NCBI RefSeq assembly: GCF_013409305.1
Contig: NZ_JACBZJ010000001.1
Location: 124,001 to 188,000, forward strand
Direction of reading: 5' to 3'
DNA: 64,000 nucleotides
DNA from: Cellulomonas soli
GTDB lineage: Bacteria > Actinomycetota > Actinomycetes > Actinomycetales > Cellulomonadaceae
Part shown: positions 1 through 12,090 of the stretch, one piece after another
Position numbering within the stretch: the first letter of the stretch is position 1
Layout: each line of letters begins with the position of its first letter
Position numbers and translations under genes: made by a program
The notes under the pieces: generated by a model
The model's database searches: none
Told to the model about the DNA's origin: nothing
The model's input: the letters and a program-made list of their open reading frames with translations, nothing else

Positions 1-2359
1 GGACCTGGGTGGCCAGCCGGGTCGTGTCGACCTCGCCGCCCTGCGGGCCCAGGTAGTACTCGGACTGCACCAGCAGGTACTCCCGGTCGACCTGCGGCAG
101 GCCGGGCGGGTCGATGACCACCGCACCGGCCATCCCGTTGGCGATGTGCGCGCTCATCGGCATGGTCGAGCAGTGGTACATCCAGATGCCGCTGCGCGTG
201 GCCGTGAACGTGTAGGTCAGCCGCTCCCCCGGGGCGATCGTGCGCATGACGTCGTCCGGGGCGAGGGCGCCGGCGTGGAAGTCGATCGAGTGCCCGATCG
301 ACCCGTCGTTGACCAGGGTGATGACGAACGTGTCGCCGACCGCGCCGCGCAGCACGGGGCCGGGCGCCTGCCCGCCGAACGTCCACAGCCGTTGCGTGAT
401 GCCGGGTGCGACCTCGCGCTCGACCTCCTGCACGGTGAGGGTGATCCGGTGGGTTGTCGGGCCGTCGCCGTCGTGCTCGGCGGGCTCGAGGGTCGCGTCG
501 TGCGCCTGGAAGCCAGGGGCGGGCGCGGCCGACATGTCGATGTCCGCTGCGGCGGACGCGGCGGTGGGGGCAACAGTGGGGGCAGTGGTGGGGGCAGCTG
601 CGGGGTCACGGTCGGGCATGTCCATGCCGTCGTGCGTCGTGGCCTGGTCGGTCGTCGTGTCGTCGGTGGCCGCGTCGCTGGTGGCGGTGCCGCCTGCGTC
701 GACGGCGACGACGGTGAGCGTCATCCCCATGAGCCGGTGCCCGGCGACCGAGCACCACCCCTCGAGGTCGCCGGTGACGACCCCGACGTCGACGCGCGAG
801 GACGCGCCGGGGGCGAGGCGTCCGGAGGTGGCGCCCGAGGCGAGCACCAGGTCGTGGACGGTCGAGTCGGTGTTGGTCACCTCGACGACCAGGCGGTTCC
901 CGGCCGGCACCTCGACACTGTCCGGGGTGAACCGCATGTCGCCGGCCTCGACCGTCACCGTGGTGGTCAGGCCGGTCGCCGCGGCGGTGCCGGCGTCCGG
1001 AGCCGAGCCGGCGGCGAGCGCGAGACCGGCAGCCGCCGGGTCGACGGCGACGCCGCCGACGACCGCGAGCGCGAGGACGGCGACGGCCAGTGCGGCGGCG
1101 CCGGCGCGGGACGGCAGGACCGGCTCGTCCACCGCGACTCCCCCGGCTCGGGACGGCGACGCGTCGGCGTGCGGCCGGGCGGCCGCCACGGCCCGGGCGG
1201 CCAGCACGAGGAAGGCCGCGAGCGCCCCGAGCCCGACGACCGAGACGAGCACCCGGACGGCGCTCGGCACGGGGGCGACGAAGAGCACGAGAGCGCCGTT
1301 GACGAGCAGCACGCGCACGAGCGCCCCGCGGTCGAGCTCGGCCGCGGTCCGCCGGGCCACGGCGGGGCCGCCGCCGAGCACGACGGGCATCAGGTAGGAC
1401 AGCGAGCCGAGCAGCACCTGGGCGACGAACCCGACCGCGAAGGGGGCCACCAGCACCCGGACGTCCTCGGCGGCGGCAGCCCACGAGGGCGCGAGGACGA
1501 CGACCGCACCGAACGCGACGACGTCGACCAGGAACCACGCCGTGGCCGCCGCGACGCTCCAGCCGGCGTAGGTCCGGGGCGGGGCGGTCCGGGCCTGGCG
1601 CACCATCATGAGCACGACGAGCACGACCGCTGCCGCGACGACCGCGGCGCCGACCCCGACGAGCGCTCGCCAGCCCGTGGCGGCCGCCACAGCGACGACC
1701 CCCAGTCCGAGGAGGACCAGGGGCAGCGCGCGGGTACCCGCGGTCGCGTCCTGCGGCTCGATCCGGGCGTGCAGCACCGTGGGCCACAGCACGAGCAGGG
1801 TGCCGAGCACGGTCAGGCCGACCCAGCCCAGCAGCGTGAACGTCAGGTGCGCGACGTAGATCCGTCCGTGCAGCTCGTCACCCGCGGTGCCCCGCGCGAG
1901 CAGCACGCCGGCGGCCACGCCGAGCGGCAGCACCGCACCGGCTGCGACGTAGTAGCGCACGAGCGGACCGAACTGGGAGGGCAGCGCACCCCGCGACTGC
2001 CTGCGGATCACCATGACCTGGCTCAGCGCGGCGACGGCGACCAGGGCCCCGCCGAGCACGGTCAGCGACCAACGGACGCTGAGCACGCCGACGACCACGA
2101 GCAGGGCGCCGAGGGTGTGCGCGGTCAGCCGGACGACCTGGAGGCGCCGTCCGCCGGGGGCCGGGCGGCGCAGCAGCGTGTCGGCGAAGTGCTGGCTCCA
2201 CACCAGGATCGCGGTGCTGGCGGCGCCGAGCAGCAGCAGGTGCACCATGAGCCAGCCGGACGCGGCGACCTGCCGGTGCAGGAGGGTCGCCACGACGGCG
2301 GCGAGCAGCCAGGCGGCGACGGGCACGTGCGCCCGCAGGTGCCAGGTCGCGCGGGTCAT
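1..2359 (-). CDS. Membrane-fused copper nitrite reductase-like multicopper oxidase, cut by the left window edge
   Basis: One uninterrupted leftward reading frame gives 786 visible residues and no stop before base 1, so the C-terminus is missing. Residues 1-455 hold about 12 hydrophobic segments. Residues 465-555 form a cupredoxin with a complete type 1 copper set (VHDL near 501, then Cys near 533 in WCSVAGHRLMGM). After a Thr/Ala/Pro-rich linker comes a NirK-type cupredoxin with GHSIDFH (His690 type 1, His695 type 2), YHC (His729 type 2, Cys730 type 1) and SAHIANGM (His and Met of type 1). This spacing is that of copper nitrite reductases, which make NO from nitrite; the second-domain His of the type 2 site would lie outside the window. 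ATG at 2359 overlaps the upstream gene by four bases, so the two are translationally coupled. Other multicopper oxidase activity is possible. The fold assignment is secure; the substrate is inferred from motifs and the nar neighbours. Confidence 0.85.
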   Translation of the reverse strand, partial: MTRATWHLRAHVPVAAWLLAAVVATLLHRQVAASGWLMVHLLLLGAASTAILVWSQHFADTLLRRPAPGGRRLQVVRLTAHTLGALLVVVGVLSVRWSLTVLGGALVAVAALSQVMVIRRQSRGALPSQFGPLVRYYVAAGAVLPLGVAAGVLLARGTAGDELHGRIYVAHLTFTLLGWVGLTVLGTLLVLWPTVLHARIEPQDATAGTRALPLVLLGLGVVAVAAATGWRALVGVGAAVVAAAVVLVVLMMVRQARTAPPRTYAGWSVAAATAWFLVDVVAFGAVVVLAPSWAAAAEDVRVLVAPFAVGFVAQVLLGSLSYLMPVVLGGGPAVARRTAAELDRGALVRVLLVNGALVLFVAPVPSAVRVLVSVVGLGALAAFLVLAARAVAAARPHADASPSRAGGVAVDEPVLPSRAGAAALAVAVLALAVVGGVAVDPAAAGLALAAGSAPDAGTAAATGLTTTVTVEAGDMRFTPDSVEVPAGNRLVVEVTNTDSTVHDLVLASGATSGRLAPGASSRVDVGVVTGDLEGWCSVAGHRLMGMTLTVVAVDAGGTATSDAATDDTTTDQATTHDGMDMPDRDPAAAPTTAPTVAPTAASAAADIDMSAAPAPGFQAHDATLEPAEHDGDGPTTHRITLTVQEVEREVAPGITQRLWTFGGQAPGPVLRGAVGDTFVITLVNDGSIGHSIDFHAGALAPDDVMRTIAPGERLTYTFTATRSGIWMYHCSTMPMSAHIANGMAGAVVIDPPGLPQVDREYLLVQSEYYLGPQGGEVDTTRLATQV

Positions 2360-3513
2360 GCCGACACCTGCGTCCGACCGGTCGCCGTGGCCGCCGCTGT
2401 GTCGGCCGCTGTGCTGGCCCCTGTGCCGGGGCGTGCGAGGCCCCGGACCGTCCCGTGCACAGCCAGGGCGAGGAACCCCAGCACCGCGAGGATGTTGCCG
2501 ACCCCGCCGACCTGCACGGCGAGCGCGCTGCCGTGGGCGTCGCCGACGAGCACCCGCAGCGCGAGCGTGACGTGCAGGGCGGCGAGCGGGACGAGCATCG
2601 CCGACCGGTAGGGCAGGGGGCGGCGCAGCACCGCGGGGAGGATCACGGGCGCGTGCGCCATCACCATCGAGAGCACGAACCCGAGGAAGACGGCGTGCAG
2701 CACGGCGTCGTACGCGGGTCCGTCGGGCACCGGACCGGCGACCAGCCAGGTCCCGCCGGCGACGGCCAGCCAGCCGTACCCGGCGAGCATCGCCAGCGCG
2801 CTGAATCGCGGCAGGCCGGCGGCCCGCACGGTCCGGCGGGCCACGTCGTAGCGGACGAGCGCCGTGACGAGCGCGAGCAGGCACGCGCCGAGCACGGGGT
2901 ACCCGACCGACGGCCACAGCAGCGCGAGCAGCACCGCGCCGGCCAGGGCGAGCGAGGCGGCGACCACGACGGGTTCGGCGTGCGCGGGTGGGAAGCCGAC
3001 CCGCAGCAGCTCGAGCCGTTCGCCGGCGATGGTCAGCACGAGGAATCCGACGAGGAACGGGGCGAGTCCCGGCACCGCGACCCCGGCGAGCCACAGGGCG
3101 CTCGCTCCGACGGCGAGCACAGCGCCGAGCGCCTGCACGGCCACGGGCGCGGCCTGCTGGCGGCGCCAGATCGCGACGTACAGCCCGGCGAACGCGAGCG
3201 TCCCGGCGAGCTGGGTGAGCTGCCCGACGGCCACGGGCAGCGGCGTCAGCAGGAGCAACCCGCCGGCGCCGAGCAGCGCGGGTGCGGCGAACGCGGGGCC
3301 GCGGCCGAGCGCGACCGCACGTTCCAGCGCGATGAGGGTGCCGACGAAGCCGAGGACCATGAGCATGCCGTGGACCTGCGGCAGCCGGTCGACCCGCACG
3401 GGGGCCGGCAGGCCGAGCAGCATCAGGGCCGCGTCCATGCCGGCGAGCAGCGCGAGCCCCGCCGGGACGAGCAGCACGAGGCGGCGGGAGCCCGCTGACG
3501 CGCGGGGAGCCAT
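2356..3513 (-). CDS. NnrS-like polytopic membrane protein
   Basis: A 385-residue protein that is almost entirely membrane: about 11-12 hydrophobic helices from residue 10 onward. Two conserved-looking His-bearing segments stand out, VHGMLMVLGFVGTLIALERA near residue 57 and HAVFLGFVLSMVMAHAPVI in the last third. This layout resembles NnrS and related haem- or copper-associated membrane proteins of denitrifiers, but I see no decisive signature. The start is ATG 3513; a longer frame from 3594 would add a basic, non-hydrophobic leader that is unlike a mature N-terminus. The stop overlaps the start of the copper oxidase gene, so the pair forms one unit transcribed away from the regulator gene. A role in nitrite/NO metabolism or tolerance is inferred from context. 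Confidence 0.6.
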   Translation of the reverse strand: MAPRASAGSRRLVLLVPAGLALLAGMDAALMLLGLPAPVRVDRLPQVHGMLMVLGFVGTLIALERAVALGRGPAFAAPALLGAGGLLLLTPLPVAVGQLTQLAGTLAFAGLYVAIWRRQQAAPVAVQALGAVLAVGASALWLAGVAVPGLAPFLVGFLVLTIAGERLELLRVGFPPAHAEPVVVAASLALAGAVLLALLWPSVGYPVLGACLLALVTALVRYDVARRTVRAAGLPRFSALAMLAGYGWLAVAGGTWLVAGPVPDGPAYDAVLHAVFLGFVLSMVMAHAPVILPAVLRRPLPYRSAMLVPLAALHVTLALRVLVGDAHGSALAVQVGGVGNILAVLGFLALAVHGTVRGLARPGTGASTAADTAAATATGRTQVSA

Positions 3514-3665
3514 TTCCACGGAACGAACCGTAGGTATCCGCTGGCCTGCACGCCTGGGACGTCGGTCCCGTGCGCCACGGCTCCGCCGGGTCATCGAACA
3601 GGTCAGGCCGCGGTCAGGGACCCCGGTCCCAGATCCCCCGGTTTTTCCCCGTCGATACTCATGTC

Positions 3666-4430
3666 ATGTCGGCCCGTCGCTCCCCTGCAGCGCGCACGCT
3701 CGCGTCGGGCAGCCGCGTGGACCTGCTCGACCTGCTCCAGCGCGGCGGCCCGCAGACCGTGGGTGAGCTCGCCACCCTCACCGGCCTGCACCAGAACACC
3801 ACGCGCGAGCACCTGCAGCGACTCGTGAGCGACGGCTACGTGCTCCGGGAGCCCGAGGTCCGCACGGTCCGGGGACGTCCCCGGATGATCTACCGGATCG
3901 CCCAGGCCGAGGACGTGCGCACCGACCCCGTCGCCGCGGTCCGGCTCGAGGAGTCCATCGCGCGCGCCGCGCTGACGCGTGTGCTCCTCGACGGCTACGG
4001 CAAGCAGCTCGACTCCCCCCGGCGCTCGGCCGAAGAGGCCGGCCGGACCCTGGCGCTGCGGCACGCGCGGCGCAAGCCCGGCCAGTGCCGACCGGGCTGC
4101 CAGGACGCCGAGCACGACACGAGCGGCCTGAGCGACGAGGACCTCGTCCAGCGGCAGGTCGACGCGGTCGACGCCCACCTCGACCGCCTGGGCTTCGACC
4201 CGACGCTCGACGCCGACGACACCGGGCTCGACTTCCACCTGTGGCGGTGCCCGTTCCTCGACCTGGCCCGTGAGCGTTCCGAGGTCGTGTGCAGCGTGCA
4301 CCTCGGCCTGGTCCGCGGGGTGCTCGAGGCCACCGGCGGCCCGGTCGTGGCCACCGACCTGCAGCCCTTCGTCGGGCCGCACCACTGCGTGCTGCGTCTG
4401 CGCAAGGACGTCGTCGCCGCCACCGGCTGA
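3666..4430 (+). CDS. Winged-helix regulator with a C-terminal cysteine cluster (SufR-like)
   Basis: The 254-residue protein starts with a helix-turn-helix/winged-helix domain (residues 15-80; VGELATLTGLHQNTTREHL, then the wing RGRPRMIY). The C-terminal half has Cys141 and Cys145 (CRPGC), Cys195 in CPF, Cys209 followed by VH, and Cys241 in HHC. The CPF...C..H...C arrangement is that of SufR-type ArsR/DeoR-like regulators that hold an Fe-S cluster. Such clusters sense oxygen, iron status or NO. The gene lies between the divergent copper oxidase/NnrS-like pair and narK-narGHJI and is the obvious candidate to control both. A GATACT box at 3654-3659 sits six bases before the ATG, consistent with a leaderless mRNA. 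Cluster binding and the signal are inference. Confidence 0.75.
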   Translation: MSARRSPAARTLASGSRVDLLDLLQRGGPQTVGELATLTGLHQNTTREHLQRLVSDGYVLREPEVRTVRGRPRMIYRIAQAEDVRTDPVAAVRLEESIARAALTRVLLDGYGKQLDSPRRSAEEAGRTLALRHARRKPGQCRPGCQDAEHDTSGLSDEDLVQRQVDAVDAHLDRLGFDPTLDADDTGLDFHLWRCPFLDLARERSEVVCSVHLGLVRGVLEATGGPVVATDLQPFVGPHHCVLRLRKDVVAATG

Positions 4431-4569: not shown

Positions 4570-5877
4570 ATGACGTCACCCACCTTGCTGCGCCCCGACC
4601 TGTCGAACTGGGACCCCGAGAACGAGGCGACCTGGGACAGCCGGATCGCCTGGCGCACGCTGTGGATCACCACGTACAACCTGATGCTGGCGTTCTGCGT
4701 CTGGTACCTGGTCAGTGCGATCGCCCCCCGTCTGAACCTCATCGGGTTCGACCTGACGAAGGGGCAGCTCTACTGGCTGGTCGCCCTGCCCGGTCTGGCC
4801 GGTGGGCTGTTCCGGATGGTCTACATGTTCCTGCCCCCGATCACCGGGACGCGCACGCTCGTGGGCGGCTCCGCCACGCTGCTGCTGCTGCCGATGATCG
4901 GCTGGACGCTGGCCGTGCGGGACACCTCGACGCCGTACTCGGTGCTCCTGCTGCTCGCCGTCGCGTGCGGGGTCGGCGGCGGGGCGTTCTCCGGGTTCAT
5001 GCCCTCGACCAGCTACTTCTTCCCCAAGCGGATGGCCGGCACGGCCCTGGGCCTGCAGGCCGGGATCGGCAACTTCGGCGTCAGCCTCATCCAGTTCCTC
5101 GTGCCGTGGGTCGTCGGCTTCGGCCTGCTCGGCACGACGGCCCTGGCACCGCAGCAGACCACCGAGGGCACGAACATCTGGCTGCACAACGCCGGGCTCG
5201 TGCTCATCCCCTGGGTCCTGCTGGGCATGGTCCTCGCCGCGGTGTTCCTGCGCCGGGTGCCCGTGACGGCCAACTTCCGTGAGCAGCTCGACATCTTCCG
5301 GGAGAAGCACACCTGGTTCATGACGGCGATCTACACGATGACCTTCGGGGCGTTCTCGGGGTTCGCCGCCCAGCTCGGCCTGATGATCCTCAACCTGTAC
5401 GGCGGGTTCGAGGACGCACCCGACCCGTTGAAGTTCGCGTTCCTCGGCCCGCTGCTCGGCTCGCTGACCCGGGCCGCCTGGGGGCCGCTGTGCGACCGGT
5501 ACGGCGGCGCGGTGTGGACGCTCGTCTCGGGCATCGGCATGACGATCAGCACGGTCTTCACCGCGTTCTTCCTCACCCCCGAGGCGGTGGGCGAGTTCAC
5601 CTGGTTCCTGGTCGGCATGCTCGCGATCTTCACGTTCGCCGGCATCGGCAACGCCGGCACGTTCAAGCAGATGCCGATGATCTTCGACCGCCGCCGCGCC
5701 GGGGGCGTCATCGGGTTCACCGCCTCGATCGCCGCGTTCGGCCCGTTCCTGGTCGGCATGGCGCTGTCGGTGTGGTCGCCGCAGGCGTTCTTCATCGGCG
5801 CCGCCGTGTACTTCGCCGGCTGCACCGTCCTGACCTGGGTGCAGTACGCCCGGCCGGGCGCCCCCAAGCCCAGCTGA
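4570..5877 (+). CDS. narK: Nitrate/nitrite transporter, MFS family
   Basis: A 435-residue protein with 12 predicted membrane helices of the nitrate-nitrite porter family. It opens with the soluble segment seen in NarK proteins (NWDPENEATWDSRIAWRTLW) and continues through the nitrate-signature glycine-rich helices (GVGGGAFSGFMPSTSYFFPK; GLQAGIGNFGVSLIQFLVPW near 155-175; AGIGNAGTFKQMP later). NarK moves nitrate in and nitrite out across the cytoplasmic membrane, supplying the cytoplasm-facing NarG active site. GGAGGG stands six bases upstream of the ATG. It is the first gene of an apparent narK-G-H-J-I operon, with 51 bases to narG. Confidence 0.95.
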   Translation: MTSPTLLRPDLSNWDPENEATWDSRIAWRTLWITTYNLMLAFCVWYLVSAIAPRLNLIGFDLTKGQLYWLVALPGLAGGLFRMVYMFLPPITGTRTLVGGSATLLLLPMIGWTLAVRDTSTPYSVLLLLAVACGVGGGAFSGFMPSTSYFFPKRMAGTALGLQAGIGNFGVSLIQFLVPWVVGFGLLGTTALAPQQTTEGTNIWLHNAGLVLIPWVLLGMVLAAVFLRRVPVTANFREQLDIFREKHTWFMTAIYTMTFGAFSGFAAQLGLMILNLYGGFEDAPDPLKFAFLGPLLGSLTRAAWGPLCDRYGGAVWTLVSGIGMTISTVFTAFFLTPEAVGEFTWFLVGMLAIFTFAGIGNAGTFKQMPMIFDRRRAGGVIGFTASIAAFGPFLVGMALSVWSPQAFFIGAAVYFAGCTVLTWVQYARPGAPKPS

Positions 5878-5928: not shown

Positions 5929-8900
5929 ATGGCATCGACCGGCACGTCCCCCGCAGGGACCGACAACCGCGCCGTCGACGCGTTGCTGCGGCTGGGCTCG
6001 CACCTGCGCCGCGGCGAGGTGTCGCAGGACCTGCGCACGCTGTTCCTGCAGGGCGGTCGCGAGGGCGACGCGTTCTACCGGGACCGCTGGTCGCACGACA
6101 AGGTGGTCCGCTCCACGCACGGCGTGAACTGCACGGGCTCGTGCTCCTGGAAGGTCTACGTCAAGGACGGCATCATCACGTGGGAGACGCAACAGACGGA
6201 CTACCCCTCCGTCGGCCCGGACTCCCCCGAGTACGAGCCGCGCGGGTGCCCCCGGGGCGCCGCGTTCAGCTGGTACACCTACTCCCCGACCCGGATCCGG
6301 TACCCGTACGTGCGCGGCGCCCTGCTGCGCGCCTACCGCGAGGCCAAGGCCCGCACCGGTGACCCCGTGACCGCCTGGGCGCAGCTGACCGCCGATCCCG
6401 AGGTGGCCCGTTCGTACAAGGCGGCACGGGGGAAGGGCGGGCTCGTGCGCGCCTCCTGGGAGGAGGCCGCAGAGATCGTCGCGGCCGCGCACGTGCACAC
6501 CATCAAGGCCTACGGGCCCGACCGCATCGCGGGGTTCTCCCCGATCCCCGCGATGTCGATGGTGTCGCACGGCGCGGGCGCACGGTTCGTGCAGATGCTC
6601 GGCGGCACGATGCTCTCGTTCTACGACTGGTACGCGGACCTGCCCGTGGCCTCGCCGCAGGTCTTCGGCGACCAGACGGACGTGCCCGAGTCGGCCGACT
6701 GGTGGAACGCCTCGTACCTGATGATGTGGGGCTCGAACGTGCCGGTGACGCGCACGCCCGACGCGCACTTCATGGCCGAGGCGCGCTACCGCGGGCAGAA
6801 GGTCATCACCGTCTCGCCCGACTACGCCGACAACACCAAGTTCGCCGACGAGTGGCTGGCCCCGCACCCCGGCACGGACGGTGCTCTGGCCATGGCCATG
6901 GGGCACGTGATCCTGCGCGAGTTCCTCGTCGAGCGGCGCACGGCACGATTCGCCGACTACATGACCCGGTACACCGACGCACCGCACCTGGTGACGCTGC
7001 GCCGCCACGGCGACGCGTGGGTGCCCGACAAGTTCCTCACCGCCGACGCGATCGACGGGCTCGGTGACGGGCGCGACCGTGCGTTCCAGACCGTCCTGCT
7101 CGACGGCGATGGCGTGCCGCACGTGCCCAACGGGACGCTCGGCCACCGGTTCGACCCGGCGAAGGCCGGGACGTGGAACCTCGACCTGGGCGACCTGTCA
7201 CCCGTGCTGTCGATCGCGGACCTCGCGGCCGGTGCGGCGGCGGACCGGGTCGAGGGCGTGGCCGTCGACCTGCCGCGGTTCGACGTCGCCCCGCAGACCG
7301 GCGAGGAGCACACCGGCGGAGCCGGGGTCGTGCGCCGCGGCGTGCCCACGGTCCGCATCGGCGACCGGGTCGTGACCACGGTGTTCGACCTCATGCTCGC
7401 CCAGTACGGCGTCGGCCGCGACGGCCTGCCCGGCACGTGGCCCACCGGCTACGACGACGCCTCCACCCCCGGCACGCCCGCCTGGCAGGAGGAGATCACC
7501 TCCGTGCCCGCGGCCGCGGCCGCGCGGATCGGGCGAGAGTTCGCGCAGAACGCCGAGCAGTCGGGCGGGCGCTCGATGATCCTCATGGGCGCCGGGACCA
7601 ACCACTGGTTCCACTCCGACACGATCTACCGCACGTTCCTCGCGCTGGTCACGATGACCGGCTGCCAGGGCGTCAACGGCGGCGGCTGGGCGCACTACGT
7701 CGGCCAGGAGAAGTGCCGACCCGTGACCGGCTGGGCGCAGTACGCCGGAGGCCTGGACTGGGCACGACCGCCGCGGCAGATGATCGGCACCGCGTTCTGG
7801 TACCTGAGCACGGACCAGTGGCGCTACGACGGCCTGGCCGCCGACCAGCTGGCCTCACCGCTCGCGCAGGGCCTGTTCGCCGGGCGCACCACGGCCGACT
7901 GCCTCGTGGAGTCCGCCAAGCGCGGCTGGATGCCCTCCTACCCGACGTTCGACCGCAACCCGCTGGACCTGGTCGACGAGGCCCGGGCGGCAGGGGTCGA
8001 CCCCGCGGCGCACGTGGTCTCCGAGCTGGAGGCCGGGCGGCTGCACTACGCGTGCGAGGACCCGGACGACCCGGCGAACTTCCCGCGGGTGCTGACCGTG
8101 TGGCGGGCGAACATCCTCGGCTCGTCGGGCAAGGGCAACGAGTACTTCCTGCGGCACCTGCTGGGCACCGACTCGGCGGTGCGCGCCGAGGAGTCCGGGC
8201 CGGACCGGCGGCCGGTGTCGATGACCTGGCGCGACGAGGCACCGCGCGGCAAGCTCGACCTGCTGGTCACCAGCGACTTCCGGATGACGTCGACCACGCT
8301 GTTCAGCGACGTCGTGCTGCCAGCGGCCACCTGGTACGAGAAGGACGACCTGTCGAGCACGGACATGCACCCGTTCGTGCACGCGTTCAGCCCGGCGATC
8401 GCCCCGCCGTGGCAGACGCGCACCGACTTCGACATCTTCGCCACGCTGGCCCGCTCGGTGACCGACCTGGCCGTCGACCACCTCGGGGCGCGCAGCGACC
8501 TGGTGGCCGTGCCGCTGCTGCACGACACGCCTGACGAGCTGGCCACCCCGCACGGCACGGTCGTCGACGGCGCCGCCCTGGTGCCCGGTCTGACCATGCC
8601 CAAGCTGGTCGTCGTCGAACGGGACTACACGACGTTCGCCGACCGGTTCGGTGCGCTCGGCCCGCTCACCGCGAGCGCCGGCATGCTCACCAAGGGTGTG
8701 CCGTTCATGCCGGACGTCGAGGTCGCCGAGCTGGCCCGCCTCAACGGCGTCGTCGCGGAGGGCTCGGCCGCGGGCCGGCCACGGCTGACCACCGCGCGGC
8801 ACGTGTGCGAGACGATCCTGGCGCTGTCCGGCACCACCAACGGCCGCCTGGCCGTGCAGGGGTTCGAGAAGGTCGAGGAGCGCACCGGCACCGAGCTGGC

Positions 8901-9681
8901 CTCGCTCGCCCGCGACCACCAGGGCAAGCGCATCACGTTCCCCGACGTGCAGGCCAGGCCCGTGCCGGTCATCACCAGCCCGGAGTGGTCGGGCTCGGAG
9001 CACGGCGGGCGGCGGTACTCGGCGTTCACGATCAACGTCGAGCACCTCAAGCCGTGGCACACGCTCACGGGCCGTCAGCACTTCTACCTGGACCACGACT
9101 GGATGGGTGAGCTCGGCGAGAACCTGCCGGTGTACCGGCCGCCGCTGGACATGCACCGGCTGTTCGGCGACGCGCGCATCGGCTCGACGGACCCGACCGG
9201 GGCTCCCGGGTCCGAGGGTCACGCCGAGGTCGCCGTGCGCTACCTGACCCCGCACTCGAAGTGGTCGATCCACTCCGAGTACCAGGACAACCTGTTCATG
9301 CTCTCGCTCTCGCGCGGCGGCCCGACCATCTGGATGTCACCGCAGGACGCGACGACGATCGGCGTGCGGGACAACGACTGGATCGAGGCGTACAACCGCA
9401 ACGGCGTCGTCGTGGCGCGGGCGATCGTCTCGCACCGCATGCCCGCCGGGACCGTGTTCATGTACCACGCGAAGGACCGCACGGTGGACGTGCCCCGCTC
9501 GGAGACCTCGGGCCTGCGCGGCGGCATCCACAACTCCTTGACCCGCGTGCTGCTCAAGCCCAGCCACCTGGTCGGCGGGTACGCGCAGCTGTCGTACGCG
9601 TTCAACTACCTGGGCCCCACCGGCAACCAGCGCGACGAGGTCACCACGATCCGTCGCCGCGCGCAGGAGGTGACGTACTGA
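5929..9681 (+). CDS. narG: Respiratory nitrate reductase alpha subunit
   Basis: A 1250-residue NarG, the usual length. The N-terminal FS0 iron-sulfur site is complete: His in THGVNCTGSCSWK, its two Cys, and the distant Cys in EPRGCPRG. The molybdenum-ligand aspartate is in LSFYDWYADLP (Asp233). The Mo-bisMGD regions (GSNVPVTRTPDAHF; MGAGTNHWFHSDTIYR; TVWRANILGSSGKGNEYF) are all present and the C-terminal molybdopterin-binding domain is intact. There is no twin-arginine signal, so the subunit stays on the cytoplasmic side, bound to NarH. It reduces nitrate to nitrite with electrons from the quinol pool. GGAGG lies six bases before the ATG. The next 43 bases hold only a strong ribosome binding site for narH. 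Confidence 0.97.
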   Translation: MASTGTSPAGTDNRAVDALLRLGSHLRRGEVSQDLRTLFLQGGREGDAFYRDRWSHDKVVRSTHGVNCTGSCSWKVYVKDGIITWETQQTDYPSVGPDSPEYEPRGCPRGAAFSWYTYSPTRIRYPYVRGALLRAYREAKARTGDPVTAWAQLTADPEVARSYKAARGKGGLVRASWEEAAEIVAAAHVHTIKAYGPDRIAGFSPIPAMSMVSHGAGARFVQMLGGTMLSFYDWYADLPVASPQVFGDQTDVPESADWWNASYLMMWGSNVPVTRTPDAHFMAEARYRGQKVITVSPDYADNTKFADEWLAPHPGTDGALAMAMGHVILREFLVERRTARFADYMTRYTDAPHLVTLRRHGDAWVPDKFLTADAIDGLGDGRDRAFQTVLLDGDGVPHVPNGTLGHRFDPAKAGTWNLDLGDLSPVLSIADLAAGAAADRVEGVAVDLPRFDVAPQTGEEHTGGAGVVRRGVPTVRIGDRVVTTVFDLMLAQYGVGRDGLPGTWPTGYDDASTPGTPAWQEEITSVPAAAAARIGREFAQNAEQSGGRSMILMGAGTNHWFHSDTIYRTFLALVTMTGCQGVNGGGWAHYVGQEKCRPVTGWAQYAGGLDWARPPRQMIGTAFWYLSTDQWRYDGLAADQLASPLAQGLFAGRTTADCLVESAKRGWMPSYPTFDRNPLDLVDEARAAGVDPAAHVVSELEAGRLHYACEDPDDPANFPRVLTVWRANILGSSGKGNEYFLRHLLGTDSAVRAEESGPDRRPVSMTWRDEAPRGKLDLLVTSDFRMTSTTLFSDVVLPAATWYEKDDLSSTDMHPFVHAFSPAIAPPWQTRTDFDIFATLARSVTDLAVDHLGARSDLVAVPLLHDTPDELATPHGTVVDGAALVPGLTMPKLVVVERDYTTFADRFGALGPLTASAGMLTKGVPFMPDVEVAELARLNGVVAEGSAAGRPRLTTARHVCETILALSGTTNGRLAVQGFEKVEERTGTELASLARDHQGKRITFPDVQARPVPVITSPEWSGSEHGGRRYSAFTINVEHLKPWHTLTGRQHFYLDHDWMGELGENLPVYRPPLDMHRLFGDARIGSTDPTGAPGSEGHAEVAVRYLTPHSKWSIHSEYQDNLFMLSLSRGGPTIWMSPQDATTIGVRDNDWIEAYNRNGVVVARAIVSHRMPAGTVFMYHAKDRTVDVPRSETSGLRGGIHNSLTRVLLKPSHLVGGYAQLSYAFNYLGPTGNQRDEVTTIRRRAQEVTY

Positions 9682-9724
9682 TGCGTGAGCTCGTCGCACA
9701 GGACACCGGCCGGAGGGCGGACCG

Positions 9725-11419
9725 ATGAGGGTCATGGCGCAGATGGCGATGGTGATGAACCTCGACAAGTGCATCGGCTGCCACACGTGCTCGGTCACGT
9801 GCAAGCAGGCGTGGACGAACCGCACGGGCGTGGAGTACGTCTGGTTCAACAACGTGGAGACGCGCCCCGGCGTGGGCTACCCGCGCACGTACGAGGACCA
9901 GGAGCGCTGGGGCGGCGGCTGGGTGCGCAACAAGCGCGGCCGGCTCAAGCTGCGTTCGGGTGGTCGGTTCACCAAGCTGACGCACATCTTCTCCAACCCG
10001 ACGCTGCCGGAGATCAGCGACTACTACGAGCCGTGGACGTACGACTACGACGTCCTGCTGTCCGCCCCGCAGGGCGAGCACACGCCCGTGGCCCGGCCCA
10101 AGTCGTTGCTGACCGGCAAGGACATGCAGATCCGCTGGTCGGCCAACTGGGACGACAACCTGGGCGGCTCGGGCGAGACGATGGCCGACGACCCGATCCT
10201 GGCGGGGATGAGCCAGAAGGTGCAGGCCGAGTTCGAGCAGGCCTTCATGTTCTACCTGCCGCGCATCTGCGAGCACTGCCTGAACCCGTCGTGCGTGGCC
10301 TCGTGCCCGTCGGGCGCGATGTACAAGCGGGCCGAGGACGGCATCGTGCTGGTCGACCAGGACGCGTGCCGGGGTTGGCGCATGTGCGTGTCGGGCTGCC
10401 CGTACAAGAAGGTCTACTTCAACCACAAGACCGGCAAGGCCGAGAAGTGCACCATGTGCTACCCGCGCCTGGAGGTCGGGCTGCCGACGGTCTGCTCCGA
10501 GACGTGCGTGGGCCGGCTGCGCTACCTGGGCCTGGTGCTGTACGACGCCGACAAGGTGCTCGAGGCGGCGAGCGTCGAGGACCCCACCGAGCTGCTGGAC
10601 GCGCAGCGCTCGGTGCTGCTCGACCCGAACGACCCGGCCGTGGTCGACGCCGCGACCGCCTCGGGCATCCCGCGCGACTGGGTGACCGCGGCGCAACGCT
10701 CACCGGTGTGGGCGCTCATCTCGACGTACCAGGTGGCCCTGCCGCTGCACCCGGAGTACCGGACGATGCCGATGGTCTGGTACGTCCCGCCGCTGTCGCC
10801 CGTGGTCGACGTCGTCACGGGTTCGGGCAACGACGGGGAGGACGCGCGCACCCTGTTCGCCGCGATCGACAAGCTGCGCATCCCGGTGGAGTACCTCGCC
10901 GGGCTGTTCACCGCGGGCGACACCGCCCCCGTCACGGGCGTGCTGCAGCGGCTGGCCGCGATGCGCGCGCACATGCGCAACGTGAACCTCGGCGTCGAGC
11001 AGGACCCGCGGATCGCGGGGGCCGTCGGCATGGACGGCGCGCAGATCGAGGCCATGTACCGGCTGCTGGCGATCGCCAAGTACGAGGACCGGTACGTGAT
11101 CCCCGCGGCGCACGCCGAGACGGCCCGGCACCTGGAGGAGATCGCCAGCGGCTGCTCGTTGGACACCGACGGTGGGCCCGGCATGGGTGGGCCCGGACCG
11201 TTCGGCTCGTCCAGCGGCCACCCCGAGCGCGCGACCGTGGAGACGTTCCACGCGTTGAAGAACCGGCAGACCGCTGACCGCCCGGCCGGTGCGGACACGC
11301 CCTCGCGCGTGAACCTGCTCAACTGGGACGGCAACGGGGCACCCCCGGGACTGTTCCCACCGCCTCCCGGGCAGCCGGGCTACGGCTCGGGCCCGGACGC
11401 GCCGGGCGGGGAGCACTGA
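9725..11419 (+). CDS. narH: Respiratory nitrate reductase beta subunit
   Basis: A 564-residue iron-sulfur subunit that passes electrons from NarI haem to NarG. Four ligand groups are visible: CIGCHTCSVTCK near residue 16, CEHCLNPSCVASCP near 184, CRGWRMCVSGCP near 217, and CTMC plus CSETCVGRL near 244-270. The Trp replacing one Cys in CRGWRMC is the known hallmark of NarH, giving one [3Fe-4S] and three [4Fe-4S] clusters. The C-terminal 80 residues are Gly/Pro-rich and poorly conserved. GGAGGG at 9713-9718 supports ATG 9725; ATG 9734 is an alternative. The stop shares one base with the narJ start. Confidence 0.96.
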   Translation: MRVMAQMAMVMNLDKCIGCHTCSVTCKQAWTNRTGVEYVWFNNVETRPGVGYPRTYEDQERWGGGWVRNKRGRLKLRSGGRFTKLTHIFSNPTLPEISDYYEPWTYDYDVLLSAPQGEHTPVARPKSLLTGKDMQIRWSANWDDNLGGSGETMADDPILAGMSQKVQAEFEQAFMFYLPRICEHCLNPSCVASCPSGAMYKRAEDGIVLVDQDACRGWRMCVSGCPYKKVYFNHKTGKAEKCTMCYPRLEVGLPTVCSETCVGRLRYLGLVLYDADKVLEAASVEDPTELLDAQRSVLLDPNDPAVVDAATASGIPRDWVTAAQRSPVWALISTYQVALPLHPEYRTMPMVWYVPPLSPVVDVVTGSGNDGEDARTLFAAIDKLRIPVEYLAGLFTAGDTAPVTGVLQRLAAMRAHMRNVNLGVEQDPRIAGAVGMDGAQIEAMYRLLAIAKYEDRYVIPAAHAETARHLEEIASGCSLDTDGGPGMGGPGPFGSSSGHPERATVETFHALKNRQTADRPAGADTPSRVNLLNWDGNGAPPGLFPPPPGQPGYGSGPDAPGGEH

Positions 11420-12090
11420 TGGCCCGCCGCGAGTCGTTGCCGTTCTTGCACCCCGTGCGCGTCGACACCGAGCAGCGCACGGTCGCGCACATGGCCGCCG
11501 CGCTGCTGCTGGACTACCCCACGCCGGCGACGCACGAGCAGGGTGACCTGCTGCGCACCGCCACCGCCTCGCTGCCCCGACCGGTGTCCGAGGCGTTCGG
11601 CCGGTTCCTGGACGAGCCGTGGACCCTGGCCGAGCAGCAGGCGCACTACGTGTCCACGTTCGACCTCAAGCGCCGGTGCGCGCTCTACCTGACGTACTAC
11701 TCCTCAGGCGACACCCGCCGCCGCGGCATGGCGCTGGTGACGTTCGTCGAGGCGTACCGGGCGTGCGGCTGGGAGCCGCGCGAGGACGAGCTGCCCGACT
11801 ACCTGCCCACGGCCCTGGAGCTGTCCGCCCGCGACCCCGGGCCGATCGCCGACGCGCTGCTGGGCACCCACCGGGACGGCATCGAGGTGCTGCGCTCGGC
11901 CCTGCACTCCGTGCCCAGCCCGTACGCGCACCTGCTCGACGCTGTGTGCCTGACCCTGCCGGCCGTGGACGCCGCCACGGCGGAGCGGTTCAGCGCGCTC
12001 GTGCAGGCCGGACCGCCCTCGGAGATGGTCGGGCTGTCCGCGCCGCTGCTGCCCTTCCCGACCGTCCGGGACGCGGAGGTCCCCGCATGA
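11419..12090 (+). CDS. narJ: Nitrate reductase assembly chaperone
   Basis: The 223-residue product belongs to the TorD/NarJ chaperone family. It is all-helical, with the family motif HYVSTFDLKRRCALYLTYYS around residues 76-95 and ADALLG/HSVPSPYAHLLDAV later. NarJ binds apo-NarG in the cytoplasm, helps insert the molybdenum cofactor and is not part of the final enzyme. ATG overlaps the narH stop by one base and the stop overlaps narI by four, so translation of the three genes is coupled. Confidence 0.93.
   Translation: MARRESLPFLHPVRVDTEQRTVAHMAAALLLDYPTPATHEQGDLLRTATASLPRPVSEAFGRFLDEPWTLAEQQAHYVSTFDLKRRCALYLTYYSSGDTRRRGMALVTFVEAYRACGWEPREDELPDYLPTALELSARDPGPIADALLGTHRDGIEVLRSALHSVPSPYAHLLDAVCLTLPAVDAATAERFSALVQAGPPSEMVGLSAPLLPFPTVRDAEVPA

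Follow-up and report, generated by a model that had tools for sequence, protein, structure and literature searches.

The stretch of DNA analyzed here (the window) comprises 64,000 nucleotides of Cellulomonas soli, bases 124001-188000 of the 4.26-Mb chromosome. It opens with a gene on the minus strand (1..2359; complete gene L002:15645-18359, C1:123645-126359) which encodes a protein of 904 amino acids joining a membrane domain, a cupredoxin, and a copper nitrite reductase (NirK). We regard this protein as probably a copper nitrite reductase that is bound to the membrane and contains its own module for electron input. The ATG lies at position 2359 of the window and the stop codon 355 bases past the window edge; residues 1-786 are inside. 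The reading frame is intact, with neither an internal stop nor a frameshift. A frameshift was looked for, and its absence bears out an earlier sequence-only reading in which the membrane and copper parts formed one protein.

The type 1 copper cupredoxin occupies residues 455-555 (695..997, minus strand; Pfam Cupredoxin_1, E 6.1e-11), and all 18 aligned rows, two of them the Cellulomonas protein itself, keep its ligands H502, C536, H541, and M546. The NirK domain extends from residue 623 on (its start at 1..493, minus strand; the rest outside the window). Its similarity to NirK enzymes of solved structure identifies it (3wi9, E 1.8e-50). Its type 1 ligands are H690, C730, H738, and M743, its type 2 ligands H695, H729, and H884, and its catalytic pair D693 and H828. 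The codons of H828 and H884 fall beyond the window edge; the type 1 ligands, D693, H695, and H729 are inside. The sequence-only reading had proposed a complete type 1 cupredoxin and a NirK-like domain with ligands of both types, leaving the last type 2 histidine to an extension of the contig. All four cupredoxin ligands and all nine NirK ligand and catalytic residues are present, and H884 was indeed found beyond the window. The idea of a NirK tethered to the membrane with a built-in cupredoxin also stands. With NCBIfam TIGR02376 (Cu_nitrite_red) the protein scored 161.3 bits, under the curated cut-off of 296.3, as did 47 of the 52 genomes having a NirK match of at least 130 bits in our sample of 396 genomes from the phylum.

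The membrane domain (residues 1-400; 1160..2359, minus strand) has the 12-helix heme-copper-oxidase fold in its predicted structure. The model of residues 1-430 contains 12 helices, about the number expected earlier, while hydropathy and loop charges place a 13th before the copper domains, at residues 415-436 (1052..1117, minus strand; bounds set by hand), near a hydropathy peak at 421-439. Lysines and arginines of the loops number 14 inside and 4 outside, and the topology with the N-terminus in and the C-terminus out agrees with the positive-inside rule. The 13 helices and these charges put both copper domains outside the cell. A comparison with NorB and CcoN had been suggested, and the model bears out a fold of this kind: the top Foldseek match was a nitric oxide (NO) reductase, and 371-387 residues could be aligned over the common 12-helix fold in the CcoN and NO reductase rows. 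The identity in these rows was 9-12%. CcoN and NorB carry six histidines on helices 2, 6, 7, and 10, whereas the membrane domain has two invariant ones on helices 2 and 6.

Kinship of the domain with the oxidases rests on this fold, since a profile search of PDB sequences with the alignment of 52 domains (A3) retrieved no oxidase subunit I and gave three weak matches. In residues 1-430 no Pfam or NCBIfam family was found above its cut-off. Pfam COX1 matched 2 of the 52 domains weakly (best E 4.3e-5) and, below the cut-off, two places within genes from the domain scan of the 396 genomes; comparison of A3 with the COX1 of the same genome gave an E of 0.059.

Families of 12-helix, two-histidine proteins with heme-copper oxidase homology (HCOH), NnrS included, were reportedly described by Pei et al. 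2014 (Protein Sci 23:1220), and are said to have three repeats, possibly one haem, and links to denitrification. By its definition (12 helices, three homologous four-helix repeats, two conserved histidines) the membrane domain fits this class. The paper on novel heme-copper oxidase homologous families appears in the reference list of PMC4602095, and it may already hold the fold assignment of the domain.

A haem in such a domain might, as in NnrS, sense or bind NO, load copper, or detoxify NO with no electron transfer to NirK. Some relatives of the protein encoded immediately upstream carry the UniRef label 'NnrS family' among the matches listed, and the genome contains a single COX1-family gene, an ordinary oxidase subunit with all six histidines, which leaves no NO reductase among the COX1-family genes found. 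On the other side, Pfam NnrS (PF05940) has no match in the genome at E ≤1 and is absent among the families at E ≤1 for the 52 members of the domain family and 26 of the upstream family, and among the 48 loci with a stand-alone copy of the domain, 7 have a NirK and 8 a cupredoxin no more than 3 kb away. We consider an NnrS-like role quite unlikely. A weak PF05940 match at locus L091 had no similarity to either family; it looks like a signalling protein and was rejected.

The only histidines invariant in all 52 domains are His40 on helix 2 (2240..2242, minus strand) and His171 on helix 6 (1847..1849, minus strand), both predicted haem ligands. H57 is kept in 30 domains and a histidine at position 173 in 28, and helices 7 and 10 lack a conserved histidine. 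Conservation in at least 80% of the domains is seen at 28 helix positions, 23 of them on helices 2-6. The six oxidase histidines, which PMC3084760 uses as a criterion for heme-copper oxidases, were present in 30 of 30 COX1 rows taken as a control. As judged from these residues, the membrane domain is without an oxidase or NO-reductase active site.

If the domain were nevertheless an NO reductase, as its top Foldseek match is, one protein would turn nitrite into nitrous oxide. The lack of conserved histidines on helices 7 and 10 and of an FeB set speaks against this. According to PMC6713497, the haem b ligands of qNOR are on helices IV and XII and its b3/FeB ligands on VIII, IX, and XII. In our own reading, subtraction of two extra N-terminal helices gives 2 and 10 for haem b and 6, 7, and 10 (VI, VII, and X) for b3/FeB in the 12-helix numbering. 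An NO reductase here is very improbable.

The three four-helix repeats of the domain resemble each other in profile comparison (EU1-EU2, probability 91.5, E 8.7e-7; EU1-EU3, 85.1, 6.2e-6; EU2-EU3, 79.2, 1.6e-5), these E-values being for single pairs, run with no unrelated-helix control, and possibly inflated by similar membrane-helix make-up. In the repeat alignments G45, G178, and G310 coincide, and H40 falls on position 173, not 171. The third repeat of COX1 (residue numbers are those of the extracted core) aligned with the domain weakly, at probability 6.4 and E 0.0058, placing H359 on 171, H361 on 173, and G366 on G178. The other eight COX1-repeat comparisons had a best probability of 1.03, one of them pairing H40 with H276 of helix 7, and the repeats within COX1 gave no useful alignment in the same test.

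If H-x6-G is called register 0 and H-x4-G register +2, the membrane domain has +2 on helix 2 (His40) and 0 on helix 6 (His171). The oxidase low-spin haem is held by the second histidine of helix 10 (H361, register +2) and by the helix 2 histidine. The latter matches register 0 through a proline 22 residues on, like H359 and H171. These registers suggest that the H40/H171 pair is the oxidase low-spin haem pair turned by one repeat. In oxidase anatomy, the site between helices 2 and 6 would be the third, empty pore. Both helices start on the outer side, H40 being 6 residues and H171 10 residues in, so the haem would sit near the cupredoxin docking face. We think it likely that a haem b is present in the membrane domain.

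An alignment of 14 Nitriliruptoria-type proteins (A4) had three further invariant histidines, at positions 53, 138, and 165 of its first row. Being absent from many other members, they suggest an extra metal or haem site in these proteins.

How is the domain distributed among other genomes? It was matched in 53 of the 396. Around the matches 57 loci were fetched, our own included, and 56 of them hold the domain by profile, 8 fused and 48 stand-alone. The weak match L082 dropped out, and its genome, G048, is still counted among the 45 with a non-fused match. Within 3 kb of the 48 stand-alone genes we found a NirK-profile match in 9 loci, a cupredoxin in 8, a gene like that upstream of the Cellulomonas fusion (P0002) in 3, and any of these in 13. 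These counts are lower bounds because some contigs end near the gene. Two of the 8 fused genes likewise have a P0002-like gene at this distance. In 7 of the 9 NirK neighbours (L041, L043, L046, L048, L049, L050, and L071) the nine ligand and catalytic positions are all filled, with glutamine replacing the type 1 methionine in the split NirKs of L048 (9964-11085) and L050 (8364-9911). The neighbours in L044 and L045 are laccase-like, have no NirK type 1 cysteine, and were taken out of the NirK count.

At genome level, a NirK of at least 130 bits is present in 30 of the 45 genomes with a non-fused match vs 14 of the 343 without any match (Fisher p 4e-23, uncorrected for relatedness). When named genomes were scanned for the Nitriliruptoria-type protein, 23 loci came up, in overlap with the first set, and in Salsipaludibacter albus AS10 (L107) NirK adjoins the domain gene. 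The Nitriliruptoraceae locus L095 has genes for the membrane protein, a cupredoxin, and NirK. When residues 1-440 were used as query, 857 relatives were found among 7993 candidates scored; nearly all of the best 120 carry copper-oxidase domains as well.

In the tree of 52 domains the eight fused rows form one clade with the stand-alone L034 (support 99/96), and the position of L034 contradicts a strictly monophyletic origin of the fusion. Two events, such as a single fusion and a single loss, are required by the tree. Members with a NirK neighbour are seen on both sides of its midpoint root, L043 on one and L041 and L046 on the other. Locus L093 has two membrane-protein paralogues, two cupredoxin matches, and a P0002-like gene on one 6.3-kb contig.

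As far as sequences can tell, an electron-input role for haem b is supported by the invariant histidines and the split partner genes. The membrane domain could instead be a mere anchor or assembly scaffold, with electrons passing from the bcc-aa3 complex or another carrier straight to the cupredoxin. Other NirKs are held by a lipid or one helix, and the one COX1-family gene of the genome is the ordinary oxidase subunit mentioned above. However, neither a 12-helix oxidase fold nor a histidine pair that is invariant in all 52 members (44 stand-alone) is needed for anchoring, and a plain anchor appears unlikely.

Several observations weigh against built-in electron input. No quinol site was identified in the membrane domain, which also favours the anchor, and sequence support for kinship with the oxidases is weak. 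No NirK, cupredoxin, or P0002-like gene lies within 3 kb in 35 of the 48 stand-alone loci, some of these contigs being cut short, and a NirK scoring at least 130 bits is absent from 15 of the 53 genomes in which the domain was matched. No common theme emerged from ten proteins flanking the domain gene in nine other stand-alone loci; three matched nothing in Pfam, and another (L068) is a regulator of the winged-helix type. Finally, L044 and L045 pair the domain with a cupredoxin-laccase-like oxidase, and the membrane module may therefore serve other copper oxidases.

Known enzymes resemble the Cellulomonas protein in part. PDB entry 2dv6 is presumably the structure of the Hyphomicrobium denitrificans cupredoxin-NirK, and TsNirK of Thermus scotoductus is soluble. 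The former, named in PMC4770552, also has an N-terminal cupredoxin fused to NirK, but it is a chain of 447 residues without a membrane domain. TsNirK likewise has three copper domains, according to PMC6400189, with a Gln-coordinated type 1 copper that L048 and L050 may also have in their split NirKs; its extra type 1 domain is at the C-terminal end, unlike that of the Cellulomonas protein. The architecture itself is not new: PMC4770552 (2016) describes an actinobacterial long NirK of Propionibacterium acnes with about 900 amino acids, a 400-residue membrane domain, a CX4HX4M cupredoxin, and NirK. It calls this membrane domain 'of unknown function', whereas fold, histidines, and split partners are absent from the text consulted. 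No fold is assigned to the domain in the titles and abstract openings of related literature, and no paper on the route of electrons to actinobacterial NirK was found in the literature searched.

The fusion gene overlaps its upstream neighbour (P0002; 2356..3594, minus strand), the ATG of the former and the stop of the latter forming ATGA. The neighbour encodes a second 12-helix protein of oxidase fold, with invariant H75 on helix 2 and H300 and H314 on helix 10. Its actual start is probably at 3513; the matching database form is 385 amino acids long and 100% identical. Its closest named relatives among the matches listed (best 120) are from Cellulomonas soli, at 86-87% identity. No Pfam family at E ≤1 and no NCBIfam family was found in it, comparison of its family with the membrane domain was weak (probability 20), and no alignment of its internal repeats was obtained. 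This protein is apparently non-catalytic. Genes like it adjoin stand-alone domain genes in L056, L058, and L064 and the fused gene in L083. With its canonical haem pair it may be a partner in the electron chain.

On the plus strand lies a divergent winged-helix regulator (3570..4430 as open reading frame bounds; Pfam HTH_20, 35.2 bits, above the cut-off), whose ArsR/SufR label comes from NCBIfam matches under the cut-off and whose actual start is probably further inside. Several cysteines are present in its C-terminal half. A role as a switch between the two operons, nirK and narK, based on a metal or an Fe-S centre, is conceivable. The winged-helix, ArsR-like regulator of L068 (9011-9772, minus strand), whose gene runs into the start of a stand-alone membrane gene, is reminiscent of it. 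Further along the plus strand are a narK-like nitrate/nitrite transporter (4570..5877; NCBIfam TIGR00886, E 2.8e-73, 247 bits, the cut-off of 312 not being reached) and the nitrate reductase genes narG, narH, and narJ (5929..12090; NCBIfam equivalogs above cut-off). For NosZ nothing above the cut-off was found in the genome, only one sub-cut-off fragment. With NirK, one COX1-family gene, and no NosZ above the cut-off, NO may be the end product in this genome, where other NO-removing enzymes were not sought.

Gram-positive denitrifiers have no true periplasm. In the mechanism that we propose for the fusion protein, nitrite made by nitrate reductase and exported by NarK would reach the copper domains outside the cell. 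H40 and H171 would together bind a single haem b close to the outer face; their site would be the pseudo-symmetric equivalent of the one that holds low-spin haem in oxidases, rotated by one four-helix repeat. A donor in the membrane, in all likelihood menaquinol, would reduce haem b, from which electrons would go to the type 1 copper of the cupredoxin, then to the type 1 copper of NirK and its type 2 copper, where NO would be made. Electron donation from the membrane domain to the cupredoxin seems probable. That the domain would oxidize quinol is our inference, and menaquinol as the direct donor is a tentative choice, somewhat short of an even chance. Also tentative, at a little under an even chance, is the suggestion that the domain founds a family of quinol:cupredoxin oxidoreductases which contain haem b and use the heme-copper-oxidase fold, the haem being placed between helices 2 and 6, at the third of the pseudo-symmetric sites, unoccupied in oxidases. 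In deep actinobacteria such a family would act through three separate genes as a free chain, and it would become a one-protein quinol:nitrite reductase once fused. If this is true, the domain, so far without a known function although it occurs in hundreds of proteins, can be tested as a haem b donor; the oxidase fold would be able to bind its haem at a different one of the three equivalent sites; and actinobacteria would have a concrete path for NO production.
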